Assembly (NCBI GenBank): GCA_031213475.1
Contig: JARUPZ010000014.1
Span: 3,638,535-3,702,534 of the forward strand
Reading direction: 5' to 3'
DNA: 64,000 nt
From: Nereocystis luetkeana
Taxonomy: Eukaryota > Sar > Phaeophyceae > Laminariales > Laminariaceae
Shown: positions 1,983 to 61,689 of the stretch, piece after piece
How positions within the stretch are numbered: position 1 is the first letter of the stretch
How the letters are laid out: the number at the start of each line of letters is the position of its first letter
The notes under the pieces: model-generated
Databases searched by the model: none
What the model saw: only the letters and a program-made list of their open reading frames with translations
What the model was told of the DNA's origin: nothing
Position numbers and translations under genes: made by a program

Positions 1983-4573
1983 TCAAAGGTTCATCAGAAA
2001 TTCCCGGTGGTAACAAAAAACCATGTTGTTGAGCGGCTTTGTTAAGAAGTCTGCACGCTGCTCCTCCGACTCTACATGGGTAATAACAAACTCCCCCTTG
2101 GAAATAAGTTCTCGCAAAAAGTGGTGTCGAACGTCGATGTGCTTAGAATTCGACGTGCACACTGGGTTTTGTGTCAGGTGCCTTGCCCCCTCGTTATCCT
2201 CGAAAACCGTAATGCATCGCTCCCCAAACCCTGGAAAAATGACACTCCAAACGTAGCGCAAGAACATCGCCTCCTTGATAGTGTCTGCTAGTGCTACATA
2301 TTCAGCCTCAGTGGTCGAGAGCGTAACGCATTTCTGCGTCCTAGAAAACCAGCACACACGCGCCCCAGCACACATGATAGCCCCACCTGAAACTGACCTC
2401 CTGTCAGTGGCTTTGTTGGCGTAGTCCGCATCCGCAAACGCTACCAGCTCAAGCCCGCTACCCTTCTGAAACGTAATGCCGAAATCACTCGTAGAAAAAA
2501 CAAACTCTAAAATACCGACCGCTGTCTCCCAGTGTACTTCCCTCGGCCTATTCGTGTACCAGGTACCTCCCTACCGCCCTCACCGCGTTCGCAATATCCG
2601 GTCGTGTTTGGTTCGCAAGGCACACCAAGCACCCCACCAACTCGCGGAAAGGCCAATCACCCACGGGTTCATTCTCGTCGAACTCTTCGAGCTTCACACC
2701 AGCCGAAAGCGGATTGTTCCTCCCAGAACTAACACCAAACCTCGCCGCGGTCCTTTCAGCGAACGCCTGCTGCGAAATCGTCAAAGTACCAGCATCCCAA
2801 TCCATCGAAAAACAACAACCAGCATACCACCGCAACTCGCCCAGATTGTTGATCGGAACAAGGCTGTTCAGGTCTTCACAGAACTGATCGCACCTAGAAT
2901 TGGGCCCTACAGCGAAAATATCATCCACATGAACCACTGTTACTATGGAGACAGAGCCCGACTCGACCAACCTCATGGCACACGCATCAGCGGGGCTCTG
3001 CTCAAAGCCTAGACTCTTCATGTGAGTGAGAAGGTGGTTGTGCCACGACCTCGACGCTTGCTTCAAGCCATAGAGGCTGCGGTTCAACCTGACTACCTTA
3101 CCGGACATTTCGCCGCAGCCAGGGGGCAGTCGCATGAAAACATCCTCATCCAAACTCGACTGCACGAACGCTTGCTCAGCATCAAAATGACACAAATCCA
3201 GACCCAACTCGCACGCGACGGCACCCAACAAACGGAAACAAGACGCTGCAGGGGTCGGAGCAAAAGTCTCAAAGAAATCAATACCCTCACGCTGCTTGAA
3301 ACCTCGTGCCACCAGCCTTGCTTTCGCCCGCACCACATCACCATGCTCGTTGGACTTCCAGGCGAAGACCCACTTCGCCGAGATGACGTTGAGCCCCTCT
3401 GGTTGCTACGTCGCTCCAAACGTCCCCGCGTCCGCCAGTTCATGATATTCCTTGTCCATCGCCTGCCTCCAGATCGTCGAATACTCGTCTACACACGCTT
3501 CAGCATACGAGTTCGGCGTCGAAAGCTCGCTTGCCGGGCGCGTGGGAAGGGGAGGATTCCCGCGCGGTGGGGCATGGTGGAAAAGTACATGGCCTATACC
3601 TTCCTGTGCTGCCATCAGCGATAGCAGCCCATGCCCCATAGCCTCGCGGTTCCGCGCGGTCTCCCCTCTTGTCCGCCCCCTCAGAACGTCCCCTTCCTCC
3701 GGGTGCCGTCCAGTTTCCCCCACTGTCCGACCACCCTGCACACCGCCACCACCCTCCTGGTGCCGTGCAGTCTCCCCCCTGGTCCGCCCCCTCAGTACGT
3801 CCCCTTCCTCCGGGTGTCGTCCAGCTTCCCCCACTGTCCGACCACCCTGCACACCGCCACCACCTTCCTGGTGCCGTGCAGTCTCCCCCCTGGTCCCCCC
3901 CCTCAGTACGTCGCCATCCTCCGGGTCCGGGATATAAGAACCCAGTTCCCGGGCAGCGCGCTGCGAAAGCTGTGGTTGCGATAACTGCTGCGGCGGCGAC
4001 GGCGATGATCTCGGCGGCGGCGGTGGCGACGGCGGTGGCGGTGATGGTGGCAGTGGCGGCGGCGGTGACGATGACGGCGGCAGCGACGGCGACGGTGATG
4101 GCGGCAGCGACGGCAACGGTGACGGCGGGGGCGGTGGCGACGGCGAAGGCGGCGACGGCGGCGGTAGCGGCGGTGATGATGGCGGTAGCATCGGCAGCAG
4201 TGGGGATGGGGACGGTAATCCGGGCCATACGTCAGGGCCTCTCAGAGGCTCCGGCGTACCCGGGGGCGGTGGTGACGGCGACGACGGTGGCGGGGAGCTC
4301 TCCTCCTCCAAAGGCAGTAACCCCACAAACGGCTTCCTCGGGTGCTCCCAAGTGACGTCGCGGGAAAACGACCTCCGGCCAGATGCCAGCAGAATCTTGC
4401 TGCAGTCAGCTGCGTGGTGGTTGCCGCCGTTGAGGTAGAAACAAGCCTCCGCCTTCGGCTCGGTCTTCAAGCTCCTCCTGACGTGGTGGAAACCTGGCTT
4501 CAAACATGGGAGCAGCGGCGCAAACGGTGCTCTCCCGTAAAATTTGCGGTACGGCGAGTGTATTTCCGGCTTG
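1983..4573 (-). pseudogene. Copia pol fragment: IN-RT linker, reverse transcriptase, RNase H
   Basis: Reading down from 4573, the SPYRKFYGR motif and the SRDVTWEHP box are the usual Copia integrase-RT junction. A long proline-rich linker (about 4330-3940) and 111-bp tandem repeats (3657-3935) follow. RT has KWVFAWK, ARLVARGF, DAEQAF, the SLYGLKQA box and the catalytic VHVDD (YVDD in most Copia). RNase H has ADADYA, the STTEAEYVA box and EDNEGA. A TAG at 3406-3408 interrupts the start of RT. The RT frame ends early at 2548 because of a 7-bp insertion (CCTGGTA on the minus strand) just upstream. Without it the frame runs on to the stop at 1983. The open frame into this region now begins with an ATG supplied by the nested LTR (MTLEVM at 4608). 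Confidence 0.9.
3657..3935 (-). repeat. 111-bp tandem repeat in the Copia linker
   Basis: About two and a half copies of a 111-bp unit, starting near 3657, 3768 and 3879. On the minus strand each codes a 37-residue Gly/Arg/Glu-rich unit containing GDVLRGRTRGETAR and GGGGVQGGRTVGE. It sits between the proline-rich linker and the RT domain. Confidence 0.75.
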
Positions 4574-4578: not shown

Positions 4579-5179
4579 TGAAGGAAGGATCATAACCTCG
4601 AGGGTCATGACCTGAAGGAATAATGCATGTTGAGGCTCTGTCTTCTATGAGAAGAGATGCAGAGGCGGCACCGAAGTGTCTGTGAAGATCACTTGTGATG
4701 AAGAAAGAAGATGGTTTGAATTTGGCGCTTAATTGGCCATTATAGAAGGAATCTTGATCTCAGAGATCAAGAGGAGAAGAGGAAAGGAAAGGAAGAAGAG
4801 GAAATGGAATGATCGAGGTGGGCGCTGCCATCACCTGATCACGAGACAATGCCCATGCTTCGGGCAGGTTTATTCTACAGCAGCCCGTCAAGGTTCCGTG
4901 AACCGTTCCTAGCAATGTCCCAGTAACGTTCTATGTAGCGTACTCGTAACGTTCTATGGAACGTTACCTGCTACCTATTGTGGTAGACTAGCTACCCTGC
5001 GTTACGATCAGTATGATAGAGATAAGTTGAATACAGTGCGTCGGCAAGAAAGAACAAACTCAAGATTCGCCGCATATCGTATTTCTCCGCATCTATCATA
5101 AGATACTCTTAGTAAGCTCGTGTGAAGTGACTGCACATCACAATAGATATGAATGTCAACGTCCATATATATGCTGACA
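4579..5179 (-). repeat. 3' LTR of the nested element
   Basis: 601 bp, TG...CA on the minus strand. Nearly identical to 7484-8098. Its last bases supply an ATG that fuses in frame with the downstream Copia fragment. Confidence 0.92.
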
Positions 5180-6843: not shown

Positions 6844-7260
6844 TTGAAGAAGTGGCTTTACCGTGCTTCGCGCTCGATGGCGTGAAAACTGGCTTGAAAC
6901 TAACTTTGCTTGTGATGGCGTAGAAACAGTATTGTAACGTTCTTAGTACTTTACAGCGTGGAAGCAGTGTGAAAACTAGCTTCGCGTGTGATGAGCAGAA
7001 ATAGTTGTGTGACGTGTTCCACGCTTACACCTCCAAAGCAGCATTGAAAACAAAGTTTTGTGTGTGATGGCACAAAAATGGTCGCGTGGCTTATTTTGCG
7101 CTTACAGCGTGAAAACAATGTTATACCTGGTACGTACGAATACGAGTTTCGCGCGAGAAAGCGTGAAACCGGACTCCTTACTCGTACGTGCTGCGCGCGT
7201 GAATGCGCACCAGTAGTCCCCTTACCTGCTTCGCGCATGGGAGCGTGAAAGCAGTCCTCC
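6590..7260. repeat. Degenerate GCGTGAAA-motif array inside the nested element
   Basis: The word GCGTGAAA or a close variant recurs about ten times at 40-100-base spacing, often followed by a T/G-rich GTGTGATGG segment. It overlaps the region expected to code the N-terminal part of Gag. Confidence 0.55.
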
Positions 7261-7483: not shown

Positions 7484-8098
7484 TGCAGGAAGGCTCATAA
7501 CCTCGAGGGTCATGACCTGAAGGAATAATGCATGTTGAGGCTCTGTCTTCTATGAGAAGAGATGCAGAGGCGGCACCGAAGTGTCTGTGAAGATCACTTG
7601 TGATGAAGAAAGAAGATGGTTTGAATTTGGCGCTTAATTGGCCATTATAGAAGGAATCTTGATCTCAGAGATCAAGAGGAGAAGAGGAAAGGAGAAGAAG
7701 AGAGGAAAGGAAAGGAAGAAGAGGAAATGGAATGATCGAGGTGGGCGCTGCCATCACCTGATCACGAGACAATGCCCATGCTTCGGGCAGGTTTATTCTA
7801 CAGCAGCCCGTCAAGGTTCCGTGAACCGTTCCTAGCAATGTCCCAGCAACGTTCTATGTAGCGTACTCGTAACGTTCTATGGAACGTTACCTGCTACCTA
7901 TTGTGGTAGACTAGCTACCCTGCGTTACGATCAGTATGATAGAGATAAGTTGAATACAGTGCGTCGGCAAGAAAGAACAAACTCAAGATTCGCTGCATAT
8001 CGTATTTCTCCGCATCTATCATAAGATACTCTTAGTAAGCTCGTGTGAAGTGACTGCACATCACAATAGATATGGATGTCAACGTCCATATGCTGACA
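7484..8098 (-). repeat. 5' LTR of the nested element
   Basis: 615 bp, TG...CA on the minus strand. It differs from the other LTR mainly by an extra 18 bp in the GGAAAGGAGAAG-rich part. Confidence 0.92.
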
Positions 8099-9239: not shown

Positions 9240-12200
9240 GCCCGGACGGTGCCTTGAAGTATGTTGGGCGGCCAGGCCCCAGAGGGCCCAGCAGTTACCG
9301 CGAAAGCCCACTGTACACAGATCATGTATGCCGATAGGGACCATTCACACAATCAAACAGACGGGGGGGTTATGTAAATATGCCGATGGGCTATAGTCAA
9401 ATGTTTTATTTCTTGGACGTTTTTTGCGGCGGCGGTGAAGAAAAATAAAGCGGGGCACAAAGTTGCCATAACTTTGCACCAGATAAAAAATTGCAAATTA
9501 TGACACTGGATTCGTGATGCCGCCCCAACATTACGTACCCTAGAGTTTCAGCTTCATCCGAGTCATTTTCAATTCCGGGGATTCGTCGGTAACATCCCCC
9601 CTTTCTGCGTTCCGATTATTAGGCACCTGGATATACTTGTTTTCATTGAAACACAAGGGAGATGAACAAATGATCCCCTCGAAAATTACGCGCCATCGTA
9701 ACTTCATCACAGAACCATACCAAAAAAAAATGAGGGGCAAGAGGTAAAATTAAATGATACCAGGTAAGAACTCACGGAACCCCCGCAGAAAATAATTAGC
9801 TTTAGCGCAGAACCGTGTGAAATCTGTTTCGGTCTAGATTTTTCGAACATGTTTGCCGGTTGGGATCTGCATGATCTGCACATGTTTCGCCTGCGCGGAT
9901 CTATATGATATACTTAATGTGCGCAACATTTTGAGTCGGCCGAAATTGATCTCGATGATTCAAATCATGGTCTGTCTGAGGTATCAAGCATTCTCCGAAC
10001 CCAGGAAGAGTGTTTCATGTGGAAAACTATTTCTACGGTAGGAAAAAAGCGTCTTTGTGGTGGACGGGCGTGGCGGTCGAACTCACGACCATTACAACCC
10101 ACGTTCTGACAACATTTGTTGTGTGTGTGTTAAAAGACAGTAGTCGCATGGACTCGTAGGGTCAACCGCCAAGTATATAGTGCTTCCCGCTCTCCTCTGG
10201 CCAACACTCACACAAAGTGCTTGGGAGTGATCATGTTTGGTATTAGTTACATGCTTGCTTACCGGATGCCTTTTAAGAGGAGGGGGGGGGATCAAGACAG
10301 CCGACATCGCCTGCCAGGTGTGATGGGACACAACTGCACTTAATATCGCCGTTACAGGGAACAGGGGATACCGTAACACCAGACACGTAATAAACTCTTG
10401 GGAAAATAAGATCCCATTCAAACGTAAACCTACATCATTTGCTCGATGTTACTGGAATCTGTAACAACGAACGCCACTCCCATACACATTTGTTGCAGAG
10501 AACATTAGGAGCGTTTAGTGATTTGATTAGGCAGTAATTGACTCGACAGACGCATTCGAAGTACATAACTATAGAGGGCATAGAAACCCCCAGCCCTGTT
10601 AACCTGGGGAGTAGACGAAATAAAAAAAAGTTGTTTTATTTGGCTCTTGGGCTCGGCATTCCTCGAGAGGACTCGGTAGTTTCAGTCCCCAGGTACCAGC
10701 AGGATAAGGCCATTTCAGGCCGAAGGTATCCTTCACGGGCAGCCAAAACACTCCGCTTCCACAATGTTGTCGTGAAAAAGTAAAAAAGCTTCACGTTTGA
10801 AGAATGCACGAGTAATAGCACCATCGGGCACGCCTTATTGTGAAGTTTTGTCGACACCTTGTCAGGATTGCTAAAAAAAATGCTCAACGTCTGTTTCTAC
10901 GCTCACGTTGTGCAAGGACGGGGGTCCCGGCTACCTGTTTGGAACTCGGCCATTTCAGATCCAGGCATCCTTGGGACTAGTGAAGAGCCGGACCCAGGAA
11001 TGTCAACCCCCAGGTGCCCAGGAGACTAGATCATTCAAAACGATTGGTACTGGGGACTCATTGACTCTGCACGGGGACTGGTACTCTGACGACGTACTAT
11101 ATTATGATGAGGACTGGTACTCTGACGACGTACTGGTAGTGTACTTTGTGGTAGTATGAAAGACCAGTTGTAAAGTTACTGTTACGACAGGAGTGGTTGT
11201 CGTGTGGCAAAGGCAAAAGGTACCGAATGGAAACGCACTACCGATGTCTCCATGTATATTACGTACCTGGTATTCGTCGTTGTGTGGTTTTGAGAACAAG
11301 CGATTCGTCGTGCACGGAGTGTGAGCAAAAAATAGAGCGACCATGACTGACGGCAACGGACGGTGATAACCACGACGGGCATTATTAATAGTACCAGCAG
11401 TCTTCGACATCTCATCCCACGGGCTGCTTCCTTGTTCCATCCGTCCAACCCCTGCCATCCATACTTCGCTGCTGCCCTGTTCGCGTTGCTGCTGCTGTCG
11501 TCATAATACCGTTTTCCTCCTTTTTCGGCTTTGGTGGCGTGATATGGCGTTTTGGTGTTGACACCAAAATCCCGCCTCATCCCTCGTGGTGGTTGAGAGG
11601 GTAGTTAGGGGAAAAGACAAACATGCATACAACCTCACCTGCGTGTCATAGGTCACGCGCATTGTGCTGGAGTGCATGATGAGCACCATGTTACAAAAAA
11701 GCAGCCCGCCAGAATGGCTCGTCAACTAATATATCGGTTGGGAATGCAGTACTCTCTACAGTAGTACCATCGGTCGATCGTACTCGCTCGCGCTCAGTCA
11801 ATACATGCAAGCAGCAGCTACAGCCATGTAAAAATCAATCAGTGCAAAAAAAAGGGAAACACAAATACAGCAAAAGCCAGGACAACCTCCGAGGCCGTGG
11901 AGACGACCACCAACGGCAACTGAAACGCTGCTTGCTGCACCACCAAGTTACCTCTGTTCTGGTGCCTTTCTGTCGCACAGCCGTTTTCACCATCCAGGAG
12001 CAATCACAAACCCTCTTCTCAACTTGTACTACTTGAATGGCATGCTGCCTGTATGTCTGCAAAACAAACTGGGCTACCTGCCTCGCCTGTATCTACCTGC
12101 CTTGCTTGTAACTAACGGAGGGCGGCCACAACTAGACGCCAGACTACACCGTCGAGACACCTCCAACACTGCCTTCCGTCACTGTAGAGATAGATCTAAA

Positions 12201-13990
12201 ACCAGAATAGCCACCAAGTACGTAGGAATTGGAACCCAAAACGCCAGATTACATAATTGCTTTCCACCTCGAAAGTCCCAACAAGAAAAAACGCGCGATC
12301 GTTCAGCGGGGGGTGGTGCACTTGTAAGTCACCCCCACACAAATATGCCGAACCGGAAACAAACGAAATCTGCCGGTACAACACACAACATCAGCATACA
12401 CTATCTACCCACCCCACGCCACATAACGCCTGAATTAAGAGGAAACCTTCACTTCATTATATCTGCACGACGGCAGGATCAACTTGCAAAAATAACGAAA
12501 CCACAAAACCCTCCTGTTAGCGTGAGGCACAGCGCGTACCCCCCCCCCCCCCTCCCACCAGCGACACGCCTTCTTCGATGCCCGGAAACATAGGGGAAAG
12601 CGAAATCGACCGCCAGTTCGAGAGCCGGAAACCGCCCGTCCCGCTCTCGACTAATCACCGACGACGGTGATTTGCGCTTTCCCTCTCCCTATCTCTACGG
12701 TCGCGATCCCTGTCCCCTCTGGGAGAAAAAATGGAGGGATAAATTTGCCGATTTTGCCCCGGCATGCAGTTCCAAAAAAAAAAAATGTCAGCCGTTCGTG
12801 TTTCCGATTCCGATTCGAAGAAAAACACGAGCGAGACGTAAAATGTGGATTCGAGTCCAACCGAATTAAACCAAATCGAACCGAGTTTTGGAACCAAATT
12901 GCAACCGAATCGAGGCGAGTCACGTCGAGAGCAGAAGCGCCCGTGAAAGCGTGGCATACAGATTTTGTGCGGTCAAATTTTGTTTTGCGGGGTTTTGTGC
13001 GTTACATACATGATTCGATTATTTTCGTGTGAGCAGAGAATATGTGACGATGGTTGAGAAGTACATGGCCATCGCAACGAGGGTCGAGGTAGGGCATAGA
13101 CGAGAGTGTGGGATAATCGAAACATTAGGTGTCAATAGGAAAAAGGACGAGGAGGGGGGAGGGGGGGGGGGGGCATTGATCCAATTTGTTTACCAGCCCC
13201 ATGGTGACCATGAAGAAGATAGGCAAGGAAGAGTGATGGAGCCATCGAGAGAGAAGGGGAGCAGAAGGTGGGGAAGGGACGGAGCGCGGGGGAGGGGGGG
13301 GGGGGGGGGGTGGGGGGGGAGCGGGAACAGGGAGAGAGAAAGAGAGGGGTGGGGGGGGGGGTGGGGGGGGGGGGGGGGTAGCCGCACATAGCGTTGTCGT
13401 CAGCTCAATGTAGCGGCGGTAGAGGAGAGAGAGGGAAATATAATCAAGCAGCGAGCGGAAGGACCCCTCAACACGACAACTAAGTTACTGCTGCTTCTGC
13501 TGCCGATACTGCTGCTGCTTCTGCTGCCGATACTGCTGCTGCTGCTTACTTTCACAACATGACCACGAAAGAACAAATAAAAAACCGTTCACTTCCGCGT
13601 CATTTTCCGAGTGAAACACTACACACACAAAAGATCATCGCCCCAAGATTTCAAGAAGGGGTGTACCCCTCCGCCGGAAATTATTACCCCAATAAAAGCG
13701 AAAGGGCAGCGACTTTTCCTGCCCAGAACCAAGGCCAACACCACCCAAACAAGAATGCGCGAGCGTACAGGGTGAGGGCGTAAAACGAAATGCGCTCTAA
13801 AAGCGGCAGCCCTCGGACACAGAGGCGTGGGATGAAGGTGAGGGTCGAACAACCCTCACGAACAGTGCCACTATTCTCCTGAGGCCGACAACTACGGCAT
13901 ACCTGGTATCAAAAATCGAGACATGAGTTTTCAATACCTTGGCAGGTTATTTCTCCCGGTGATGTGTGTTGCTGTATCCCCTGCATTATC
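9240..13990. other. Unassigned stretch between the Copia remains and the SR140 gene
   Basis: No protein family or RNA gene recognised. Minor features: a 24-bp repeat present twice (11075-11098 and 11111-11134), poly-C at about 12541-12552, a polypurine/poly-G stretch at 13150-13380, a CTG/CTTCTGCTGC-rich run at 13488-13550, and three of the TACCWGGTA motifs. A GATC-rich segment at 9840-9920 resembles others at 22.4, 26.7, 42.4 and 61.1 kb. Small 3' exons of the SR140 gene could be hidden here. Confidence 0.45.
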
Positions 13991-14307: not shown

Positions 14308-44496
<30,189 letters not shown>

Positions 44497-44932: not shown

Positions 44933-53751
<8,819 letters not shown>

Positions 53752-54599: not shown

Positions 54600-57490
54600 G
54601 CTCCTTGGGCCTTGGGGTGCACGCGTGCGTGTTTTGGTACAGCAGTTTGTACGGTGGGCAGACAATGGAACCTCTTATCTCTTTCTCGCTTTGGAACGAT
54701 TTATTTGGGGGCGGTAACCGAAGCGCTCCCGTATTGAGCGGTCGGGTCCTCGGGGCAAGTGGTACGATTCCGGGGGGGGTGACTGGGTCATGCCATTATG
54801 GTGTACCAGGGTATACCCGTACCCAGTACGTTTGGCATGCGATGTATTTTCTTTTGTCAACCGTGGGAGTTTGTGCGACAGAGTTTGTAGTACAGACTAT
54901 CTCGCTGGGATGAAGGGTGGTCAGCACTGGCACTGGCGTGTGTTGGGTGTCCATGGGCGAAATTAACGTTTAGTGCGAAGAAGCCTGCTACTACTGTAGC
55001 ACTGCTATGTACTGCGTGGTACGAAGGGAGACGCACGCACCACGAATCACCCCAGAAAATAATGCGGCGCTTGGGCTCTTGTGCCGGGGGTCGCCTGCTA
55101 TCAACGATTTCCCATCGGTTCTCGATGTCTGGAGCCAATGGCAAGATGTTTTTGTCGTTCGCTGAGATTCGAAAAGTCTGCCGACCTTATACCATAACAG
55201 CAGAGATTACCGTCGGATCTACCAGGTGCTTGCTGTAGTAGACGATCAACGATACGACGTACCAGGTATTATTTATTAACACTACTCACTACATTAAATC
55301 TTGATACGTCCGGAGTTCGAACGTTTTAGTTTCTGCTGGCTGCCGCGTGGTCGAGGATGAGAGCCTCCCCAATGCGTCTGCTCCCGGCCTCAGGACGACT
55401 CGTTGCTGCATTCGTTCGCCATCTTGTGAGAGAGGGAGTAATCATGGCCATCGCTGAGCTGGATGGAGCCAAGTCCAGAGGGATGAGGCACACAAACAAA
55501 CCAAACACTTAACAGTCCTAAAAATGGAAGAATCAGAGGACCTTTAACAATCTGGGAGAAGGGATTTTAGGTTGGTATGCTGTTCAGGTGCTTTGGTTCA
55601 TGTCGGGATCAAGGAACTGGCGAAGACCTAACCCAACCCCTGACCCTAACCCTGACCCCAAACCGCAGCCAAAACTCGCCAAAAACGCGGCTGCGCCGCG
55701 TTTTCATCGAACCAGGAAATTTCCCAGTTGCGGACGACGATTCCGAAGTGCAGACCACGCGAGGCATTTTTCAAGTCAAAAACATCCCTGAAGATCCCTT
55801 CTCCCAGATTGCTAAACCTACTCAAGAATCATTTGGCACGCACTTTTTATAACGTGGGAGGAGCACGCCAGGCAATCCACCATGTCAGAACCATTTCTTG
55901 CCGGACAGGTACTACTGCTGTACTAATCATAGGTGTACATTCGAATCAGGACCGTTTCATACGCTGAACTCGAGGGCCTATTCCCACTCCTATTCGCTCG
56001 ATTATCGAGAGCGGGTTGGGGTTCAGGCAGAGCAGGTATCTCCCACTAAATAATAAAATATGCGTACACAACCAGACATTTCAGGCATGTTTGCTACTTG
56101 CTGTTGTGGCACCTGAGCTCACCCCTGCTGACGACACGTGCCACGGTTACGTGCGTACATATGAACGATGCGACCGCGAACTCGCTAGTCTAACCGCGCT
56201 AGGCATATGAATCATACTACGTACCGGTAGCCGTTGCAGATACCTGCGATACCAGGTATGAATATAAATATATGTTCGGCTTTCCAAAACATGATGATTG
56301 CACCGTTAAAAGGTTATGAGCCTTGTTCCAGTACTGCAACCGGCGAGAAGCCACATGCCACTACTGTATAGCACTGATAGCTTGTAGTGCACGGGGTAAG
56401 ATCCCAGAAAACAGTAGTAGTGAGCAGTACCAGGCGACGGTAGTATGCGCCGATATACCCGTGCGTGAAACATAGAACGTGCCAGACATTTATGGTAAAC
56501 ACTGCCATGAACATTAAAACACGCACCATTTCCCACAGAGAGAAAACCAAGGATCAACCTCTTGACGTAACAAGCGAAAACTCTACACGTGCGCATGGCC
56601 GAATAAACGATACACCAGCGCCGCATTCACGTCTACAGTAGCAGACCTACACCACCAGCAGTAACAGCAAATCAGCACCAGGTATATATGCAGCAAATCG
56701 GTGTATGAGCAGTACGAGCAGCAGTAGTTTCCGGCAGCAAAAAGTACTTGTACTTATTGTATTATTAGCGATCGGTACTCTATTGTAGTAGCATTCGAAG
56801 GATCTTGGGGTCCCGTCGGTCGTTACTTGCGCACGGGGCGACATACAGAGCTCGCGAGAACAGCAGCAAGCAAGTTTTGGCGCACGAGCGATCACAGCAG
56901 TCGAATGATACAACACGATACATACATGCATGTAGATACCTGGTATATATCTACGGCCTCGACGAATGGAGGGGACCTGCTTCGAGAGACAAGAAGGCCC
57001 GTGCGACGGTCGGTTGGCTCGCGAGAGCTTGGCACCCACCCGCAGCAGCTCTAGAGGTACCATGAAAGGAAAACACCCAAGACGAAGACACGCCGCCAGG
57101 CGGTTAACGAAACACGACGATGATATCTGTCGCGTGGTCAGTGCCGCCGCTTTCTCTCCCTCTCGCCACCAGCGCGACTAATATTGCCACCACCACCACC
57201 ACCACCACCATCACTATACAGGAGAGGACATGACACCTATTGAGCACTACATATAGCTACAATACTAAGAAAAAAAGCACTAATAAAGCAAAGCAGGCTG
57301 AGATTTACAGAAAAATAAAAAGAAATTCGGGAGGCGCCATACTGACGTTAAGTCTAGAACGCACTCTTTCTCAAATAAGAAAACATGTTTTTAAAAAGCC
57401 AATCCAGCATGGACGAGTTTTCCTATTTATTTACTGATAATAGTAGAGTTCCTCAGGCATAACACAACGCCGAAACAAGAGACACCTCGT
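54600..57490. other. Unassigned stretch with footprint motifs
   Basis: No protein family or RNA gene recognised. It holds three TACCWGGTA motifs (55260, 56250, 56937), an inverted-repeat element (55543-55816, listed separately), a CACCAC run near 57190-57212 and a region rich in CAGCAG near 56650-56730. Confidence 0.45.
55543..55816. mobile_element. Inverted-repeat element of about 274 bp
   Basis: Ends TTTAACAATCTGGGAGAAGG and CCTTCTCCCAGATTGCTAAA are reverse complements with one mismatch, and similarity extends about 30 bases. The interior holds CCTAACCCTGACCCC-type telomere-like words. It has the form of a non-autonomous DNA transposon. The target duplication was not resolved. Confidence 0.7.
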
Positions 57491-61190: not shown

Positions 61191-61689
61191 TCGTTTATTC
61201 CTGATGCGTGTGCGCGGTTCGATTCAAAAAGAGGGTTCGTGCGGTGCGCTGGCCTCTTTATTTTCTGGCGCAACAGGGCTACCACGTACAGCTCGCAAAT
61301 ACACTATTAATACTATCATACGTACCTCGTACCAGGTACGCGAGAAAAGCTCCCAACAAAAAACGAGCCAATCTGCTAGGTAGCCCGCTTTGCCTACCGC
61401 CCGCTTTGCCTACCGCTCGCTTGTTTTATCGCTTGTTTGTCGCCTGCTTGGTTGTCGCAACCTTAGCCCCCACGAAAACCAGAACCCCCCCCCCGAAAAA
61501 ATAAGGCGAAAACAGCCCAAAACCACCCTTCCGAGAACAACTATTGAAGGAGGAAAAAAAAAAGAAGAGCCAACGCACGCAACATCGCAGACGTCCAGAA
61601 ATCAGACACACGCAGACACGCTTGGCTGTCGCTTGCTTGCCCCGCCCCTCCACCCCCGCCAAAAAAACAATTGAAACAAAAAATAAGAA

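Follow-up and report, generated by a model that had tools for sequence, protein, structure and literature searches.

The genome of Nereocystis luetkeana carries a short recurrent sequence, TA-CCWGG-TA, and single copies of several of its repeats have gained the corresponding 7 bases at a TA dinucleotide. These scars are probably excision footprints of a cut-and-paste DNA transposon that targets TA, the element itself being as yet unseen. The scars are Tc1/mariner-like, and membership of the Tc1/mariner group is not proven. Studies of transposon footprints normally deal with only a few of them; in this genome a single 7-base footprint recurs about once per 2.55 kb (assembly of 465,085,209 bases), in old and younger repeats and with a readable target preference. 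Scale, a uniform 5-base core and a missing source are what set the case apart from known footprints.

The best-documented single event lies in a Copia gene within the window, the whole 64,000-nucleotide stretch that was analysed. The features concerned are as follows.

2548 to 3336, minus strand: Copia reverse transcriptase open reading frame from the ORF list (RVT_2, E 3.1e-38), with a stop just past the scar.
2557 to 2565, minus strand: scar TA-CCTGG-TA in the Copia gene, where other Copia copies are 7 bases shorter.
1985 to 2555, minus strand: RNase H-like portion of this Copia pol, 190 open codons that follow the scar in a different frame.

Positions 2557-2565 read TACCAGGTA on the plus strand and TACCTGGTA on the minus strand. 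The duplicated TA occupies 2564-2565 and 2557-2558, and the core lies between them at 2559-2563 (minus strand). A preliminary description had placed a 7-bp TA-CCTGG-TA insertion inside the RT/RNase H frame, and this is borne out: the reverse transcriptase frame reads through TACCTGGTA and then meets a stop at 2548 (minus strand), and the RNase H-like part continues in a different frame. The RNase H-like piece had no match in a Pfam search; against PDB it gave weak Cas6 matches alone (E 1.1 and 1.6), which were dismissed as chance. Relatives outside the Nereocystis genome are 66% (L080) and 46% (L081) identical to this part, and in both the matching RT/RNase H junction is unbroken. The host gene thus fits Copia, with an RVT_2 reverse transcriptase followed by a downstream piece resembling L080 and L081. 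These two records (JALZUP010000359.1 and JALZUP010000089.1) and a third (L082, CALFWR010000036.1) carry Copia pol under titles of bacterial MAGs, probably as eukaryotic contamination; TACCWGGTA is absent from all three (10.8 kb together). No Copia reverse transcriptase was found in viral contigs. An exact double motif was met in 3 viral contigs and set aside as chance, there being no general motif excess. Near the Copia gene, a direct repeat of 600 bp, 95.6% identical (window 4579-5179 and 7484-8098), may represent either paired LTRs or solo LTRs.

Related copies establish the direction of the change. A 241-base query across the scar site returned 211 genomic candidates. Forty of these were scored, one being the window copy itself, and all 39 others are exactly 7 bases shorter than it; 37 span the full query with 234 bases, and the remaining two start at query base 2 or 3. 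Twenty of the 39, from twenty separate places, were fetched and aligned, and every one reads GAGGTACACG where the window copy reads GAGGTACCTGGTACACG; the window copy is therefore the one that gained the 7 bases. The preliminary description had predicted just this, Copia copies with a single TA and without the 7 bp, and had taken the bases to be added to a TA; 39 of 39 scored and 20 of 20 aligned copies agree. Apart from the scar, five positions of the window copy depart from the majority, compared with none to two in the other aligned copies. An exact short string repeated so widely does raise the question of an assembly or sequencing artefact. That explanation is scarcely credible, as the string is absent from 20 of 20 near-identical Copia copies and present in the diverged one, its copies show ageing and its target preference is symmetric. 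The flank repeated at the Copia site is GGTAC, along which the alignment gap can slide, so that the size of the duplication is unreadable from this site alone.

The same event at a TA is seen in other repeats. One is a MITE family of about 110 bp, TA-flanked and with ends CGGGGGACCATAG, whose central TATATA is a scar hotspot. Copies in the window lie at 21183-21293, 21574-21686, 22103-22214, 23243-23361 and 48768-48882, and one of them is filled.

23243 to 23361, minus strand: MITE copy with ends CGGGGGACC, TA-flanked, with a scar at the central TATATA hotspot.
23295 to 23303, minus strand: scar inside this MITE copy; the four other window copies are exactly 7 bases short.

Empty copies have one TA at the site and filled copies a TA on either side of the core; since MITE copies have other flanks than the Copia gene, the duplication is reduced to TA. 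An unbiased 264-kb sample was made up of the window and 20 stretches of 10 kb (L012-L031), one of which holds 2,500 N. It contains 17 MITE stretches, one of them a 30-base fragment, with the central scar intact in two and decayed in one. Genome-wide, the hotspot pattern has 13,291 matches (6,650 + 6,641). Among the 100 of these that were listed, 87 have the empty length and six are 7 bases longer (five with an intact CCWGG, one decayed). The other seven are longer by 1 (two), 2, 3 (two), 8 and 20 bases, no value occurring more than twice. The pattern TACCWGGTAN{0,2}GGTTTTTRTG has 1,041 + 1,110 genome matches, and those listed are mostly, not all, MITE copies. Twenty MITE copies were fetched, a biased selection in that they were picked by a motif-carrying query; their cores are CCTGG or CCAGG and fall within the TATATA hotspot in three or more registers. 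Many of the MITE scar events were therefore independent. Some filled copies may have spread by MITE copying and not as separate events. A single MITE copy (L074, C17:7369282-7369561) carries two exact scars and a TACCCTGGTA variant at three different TAs. In a LINE-like repeat, one copy is filled (L114) and five have the TA alone at the same place (L107, L109, L111, L113 and L115). A paralogue spans the site at 14 of the 103 exact motif sites in the sample. At six of the 14 there is an empty paralogue that aligns without gaps and retains the TA; at the other eight no empty junction was both clean and gap-free. Filled paralogues were also seen, in two pairs.

The motif is far too frequent for chance. 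The window holds 24 exact copies against 0.23 expected, with a maximum of 2 in shuffled sequence. Besides the two scars given above, and together with two members of a longer class, they are the following.

7124 to 7132, plus strand: scar, exact motif.
9758 to 9766, minus strand: scar, exact motif.
11264 to 11272, plus strand: scar, exact motif.
13900 to 13908, plus strand: scar, exact motif.
15336 to 15344, plus strand: scar, exact motif.
20948 to 20956, plus strand: scar, exact motif.
29210 to 29218, plus strand: scar, exact motif.
32120 to 32128, minus strand: scar, exact motif.
32540 to 32548, plus strand: scar, exact motif.
40544 to 40552, plus strand: scar, exact motif.
40905 to 40913, minus strand: scar, exact motif.
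42447 to 42455, plus strand: scar, exact motif.
43162 to 43170, plus strand: scar, exact motif, followed by TACCCGGTA with a common TA.
45857 to 45865, minus strand: scar, exact motif.
45998 to 46006, plus strand: scar, exact motif.
50510 to 50518, plus strand: scar, exact motif.
51302 to 51311, plus strand: 6-base-class scar TACCAGGGTA, from the core-class count.
51567 to 51582, plus strand: two scars with a common TA, TACCTGGTACCAGGTA, from the motif scan.
54804 to 54813, plus strand: 6-base-class scar TACCAGGGTA, from the core-class count.
55260 to 55268, minus strand: scar, exact motif.
56250 to 56258, minus strand: scar, exact motif.
56937 to 56945, plus strand: scar, exact motif.
61330 to 61338, minus strand: scar, exact motif.

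The sample contains 103 exact sites against 2.4 expected. The whole genome has 182,395 (91,155 + 91,240), against 1,744 (883 + 861) for the reversed-string control, a 100-fold excess; the two strand counts show that forms with A and T at the centre are equally common. The Copia insertion had initially been called direct evidence for the origin of the dispersed motif. This stands for the sites tested individually, a minority of the 182,395. Exact or one-mismatch matches number 280,004 + 280,656 (control 34,799 + 35,099). As the motif is nearly its own reverse complement, an exact site is counted twice in the one-mismatch search; with exact sites subtracted, about 195,900 remain against 66,400 in the control. 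The sample shows the same excess (132 one-mismatch forms against 54.5 expected), from which it follows that the scars are of mixed age. Two-mismatch forms in the sample show no excess (503 against 548 expected). The scars are thus not saturated. At the core centre, W stands at 103 sample sites and C or G at 13 (1.7 expected), and five pairs of tandem scars in the sample have a common TA. In the literature searched, mostly without subscription papers, no description of the motif as a genomic scar was found.

Abundance, exactness, near-palindromic form and equality between strands would also suit a functional palindrome, a binding site or similar, raised by selection or point mutation. That reading is very improbable: at the sites compared, exactly 7 bases arrived in a single step, in one case inside a Copia gene; the empty sites disfavour it; tandem scars have a common TA; and a 6-base class would not be expected from it.

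Target preference was analysed at 93 sample sites, after removal of 10 partners in the five tandem pairs, with all TA dinucleotides as background. The preference is symmetric, with R at -1, T at -2, A at -3, A at -6 and A/T at -7, and p values range from 7e-5 to 5e-15. In the window, RTA...TAY surrounds 21 of the 24 scars and 35% of TAs. PIF/Harbinger footprints have a 3-bp TWA/TNA duplication. No such longer duplication is apparent here, TA alone being common to the sites and the flanking base varying.

Longer cores form an asymmetric, nested series. Among 6-base cores in the sample, TACCAGGGTA occurs 10 times (0.67 expected) and TACCTGGGTA not at all (0.44 expected); the class, rarer than the 5-base core, consists almost solely of CCAGGG/CCCTGG. 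Genome-wide, TACCWGGGTA has 13,000 matches (6,505 + 6,495) against 771 (380 + 391) for the control. Among the 100 listed, the centre is A in 93 and T in 7. Seven of those with A are units of one satellite array of 528-base period (G000 C1:1305185-1308353) carrying TACCAGGGTA, a scar copied by tandem duplication. One-sided forms of the MITE hotspot number 97 + 97 genome-wide, and the 100 listed comprise 85 CCCTGG, 3 CCCAGG, 4 TCCTGG, 1 TCCAGG, 4 GCCTGG and 3 GCCAGG. Sixteen of the CCCTGG cases were fetched: 11 are TA-CCCTGG-TA, 3 are TA-CCCCTGG-TA and 2 are otherwise. Seven-base cores in the sample (CCAGGGA, CCAGGGG, CCTGGGA and CCTGGGG, 2 each) are too few for asymmetry to be visible and in this respect lend no support to a nested-end reading. 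Shorter cores are also raised in the sample, with CAG at 94 against 34, CCAG at 24 against 10.9 and CCGG at 13 against 3.8. The nested cores read like differing lengths of one hidden end, 5'-CCAGGG(G). The CCAGGG/CCCCTGG series speaks against a binding site and would be expected from overhangs of 5, 6 and 7 bases at such an end.

The proposed mechanism would run as follows. (i) A cut-and-paste DNA element would insert at the TA of a palindromic AT-rich target, about WAnnATR-TA-YATnnTW, and the TA would be duplicated. (ii) When the element leaves, the transposase would cut at its boundary on one strand and, on the other, usually 5 bases in from each end. (iii) Two 3' overhangs, CCAGG, would remain and pair as CC-A:A-GG. 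(iv) Random repair of the central mismatch would yield CCAGG or CCTGG, hence TA-CCWGG-TA. (v) Where the cut at one end lies 6 or 7 bases in, CCAGGG or CCAGGGG (CCCTGG or CCCCTGG on the other strand) would remain. The 7-base gain at a TA, the excess, the target preference and the core series are observed; that a transposase made the scars, how long its overhangs are, that the element ends in 5'-CCAGGG(G) and that it stayed active for long are inferred. The 7 bases might alternatively have been added directly at a TA by another DNA-breaking enzyme with templated fill-in, no element ever having been inserted. Such an addition would account for the missing source and the uniform core; it is improbable, in that it does not readily predict the asymmetric CCAGGG and CCCCTGG cores, which look like end-length variants.

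Excision footprints are the preferred reading, and comparisons with known systems place them near Tc1/mariner. Transposases of this group leave 3' overhangs of 2 or 3 nt, whose repair gives TA-flanked footprints (PMC3878927), and the footprint core is given as 2-4 bp of terminal bases (PMC7913693). The Sleeping Beauty footprint is C(A/T)GTA (PMC3878927). Shared with this system are the TA target and its duplication, the AT-rich palindromic target and an odd-length, near-palindromic core with an A/T centre, as from mismatched identical 3' overhangs (PMC3878927). The A/T centre is borne out by equal forms and by C/G at 13 sites against 103. In contrast to the Sleeping Beauty core of 3, the core here is 5 bp with minor classes of 6 and 7, outside the 2-4 bases of the Tc1/mariner account; there are 182,395 exact copies, and the source was not found. 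In grasses, the footprints of Stowaway MITEs and Osmar5 are few and varied, with end fragments of 1-4 bp (PMC1925063). They too are TA-flanked scars of terminal bases with nested lengths and reinsertion beside an old footprint, but they are mixed, whereas one core dominates genome-wide here (PMC1925063). Two features of the core weaken the footprint reading: its length, which exceeds the 2-4 bp or 2-3 nt of Tc1/mariner, and its uniformity, far greater than in Stowaway/Osmar5. The preliminary description had named a Tc1/mariner-type transposon. Its footprint reading has gained from the palindromic target preference and the nested CCAGGG/CCCCTGG cores; its assignment to Tc1/mariner has not gained support, given the core length, the lack of a source element and the lack of DDE_3 matches. 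It is therefore partly supported, right in kind and unproven for Tc1/mariner.

A source element was sought in several ways. TA-flanked terminal inverted repeat pairs in the window were only tandem scars or chance pairs. No CCWGG-ended, TA-flanked element was found in the window and the 264-kb sample, where pairs were again tandem scars or chance. A 25-base CCTGG...CCAGG candidate (L006-L008) proved to be two decayed scars. Of the 202 one-sided MITE hits, 28 were read (8 of 8 and 20 of 194); in these the MITE arm directly adjoins the core and there is no inserted element. Genome matches to TACCAGGGG number 894 + 904 against 19,888 + 20,003 for the reversed control, counts that prove nothing because the control string partly resembles the MITE end. 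Extension families A (11), B (9) and C (3) among 100 listed TACCAGGGG matches were rejected as internal parts of repeats, not ends, the sequence upstream of the TA being common to the copies fetched (11, 2 and 2); family D has 5 of the 100 listed, and one copy was fetched. The DDE_3 profile has 0 matches in the genome. DDE_1 (pogo type) has 28, several with long open frames, and around the three pogo-type loci L083-L085 there are no ends matching the scar core. Absence of the source from the sequence examined would fit an element that is rare, lost or very efficient at leaving, and the rival explanations fit it too.

One of these is programmed elimination, with the assembly representing a post-excision genome from which TA-bounded internal sequences are cut in development, much like ciliate IESs except that a 5-base scar and not a clean TA is left. 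Paramecium has ~45,000 IESs with TA boundaries, and they agree with the present case in the TA boundaries, the tens of thousands of sites and a Tc1/mariner link (PMC3464196). Excision there is described as precise (PMC3464196), whereas here a 7-base scar stays. The extreme number of scars and the lack of any unexcised element at the places read would also suit elimination. The reading is nonetheless distinctly improbable: the data, from one assembly, do not indicate a second nuclear or developmental form of the genome, one-mismatch scars behave as inherited, ageing marks, and only the more diverged of 21 aligned Copia copies bears the scar, as from ordinary ageing.

Taken broadly, the idea of a self-erasing mobile element or programmed elimination, with 200,000-300,000 inherited 7-base scars and hardly any inserted copy left, is doubtful. 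If true, the change from TA to TA-CCWGG-TA would be a form of mutation constantly at work on genes genome-wide. With about 180,000 scars, the process must be a notable source of mutation in the Nereocystis genome. If the excision reading is right, the scars would date and map past jumps of an all-but-vanished element, the element's ends would be readable from its remnants (5'-CCAGGG), and scars would act as frameshift mutations wherever they fall within genes. The element and its transposase can then be sought by direct tests.

Other short sequences are also enriched. TACGAGTA/TACTCGTA, which resembles the Minos footprint, occurs 11 times against 1.3 expected in the window (4941, 6231, 6583, 7179, 7864, 21147, 29661, 45870, 48883, 49160 and 52199, two of the 11 being inside a repeat pair) and 40 times against 9.3 in the 264-kb sample. 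In the same sample TATTAATA occurs 58 times against 5.4 and TACAGTA 94 against 34; some TATTAATA lie within longer palindromes, for example beside L018:3768.
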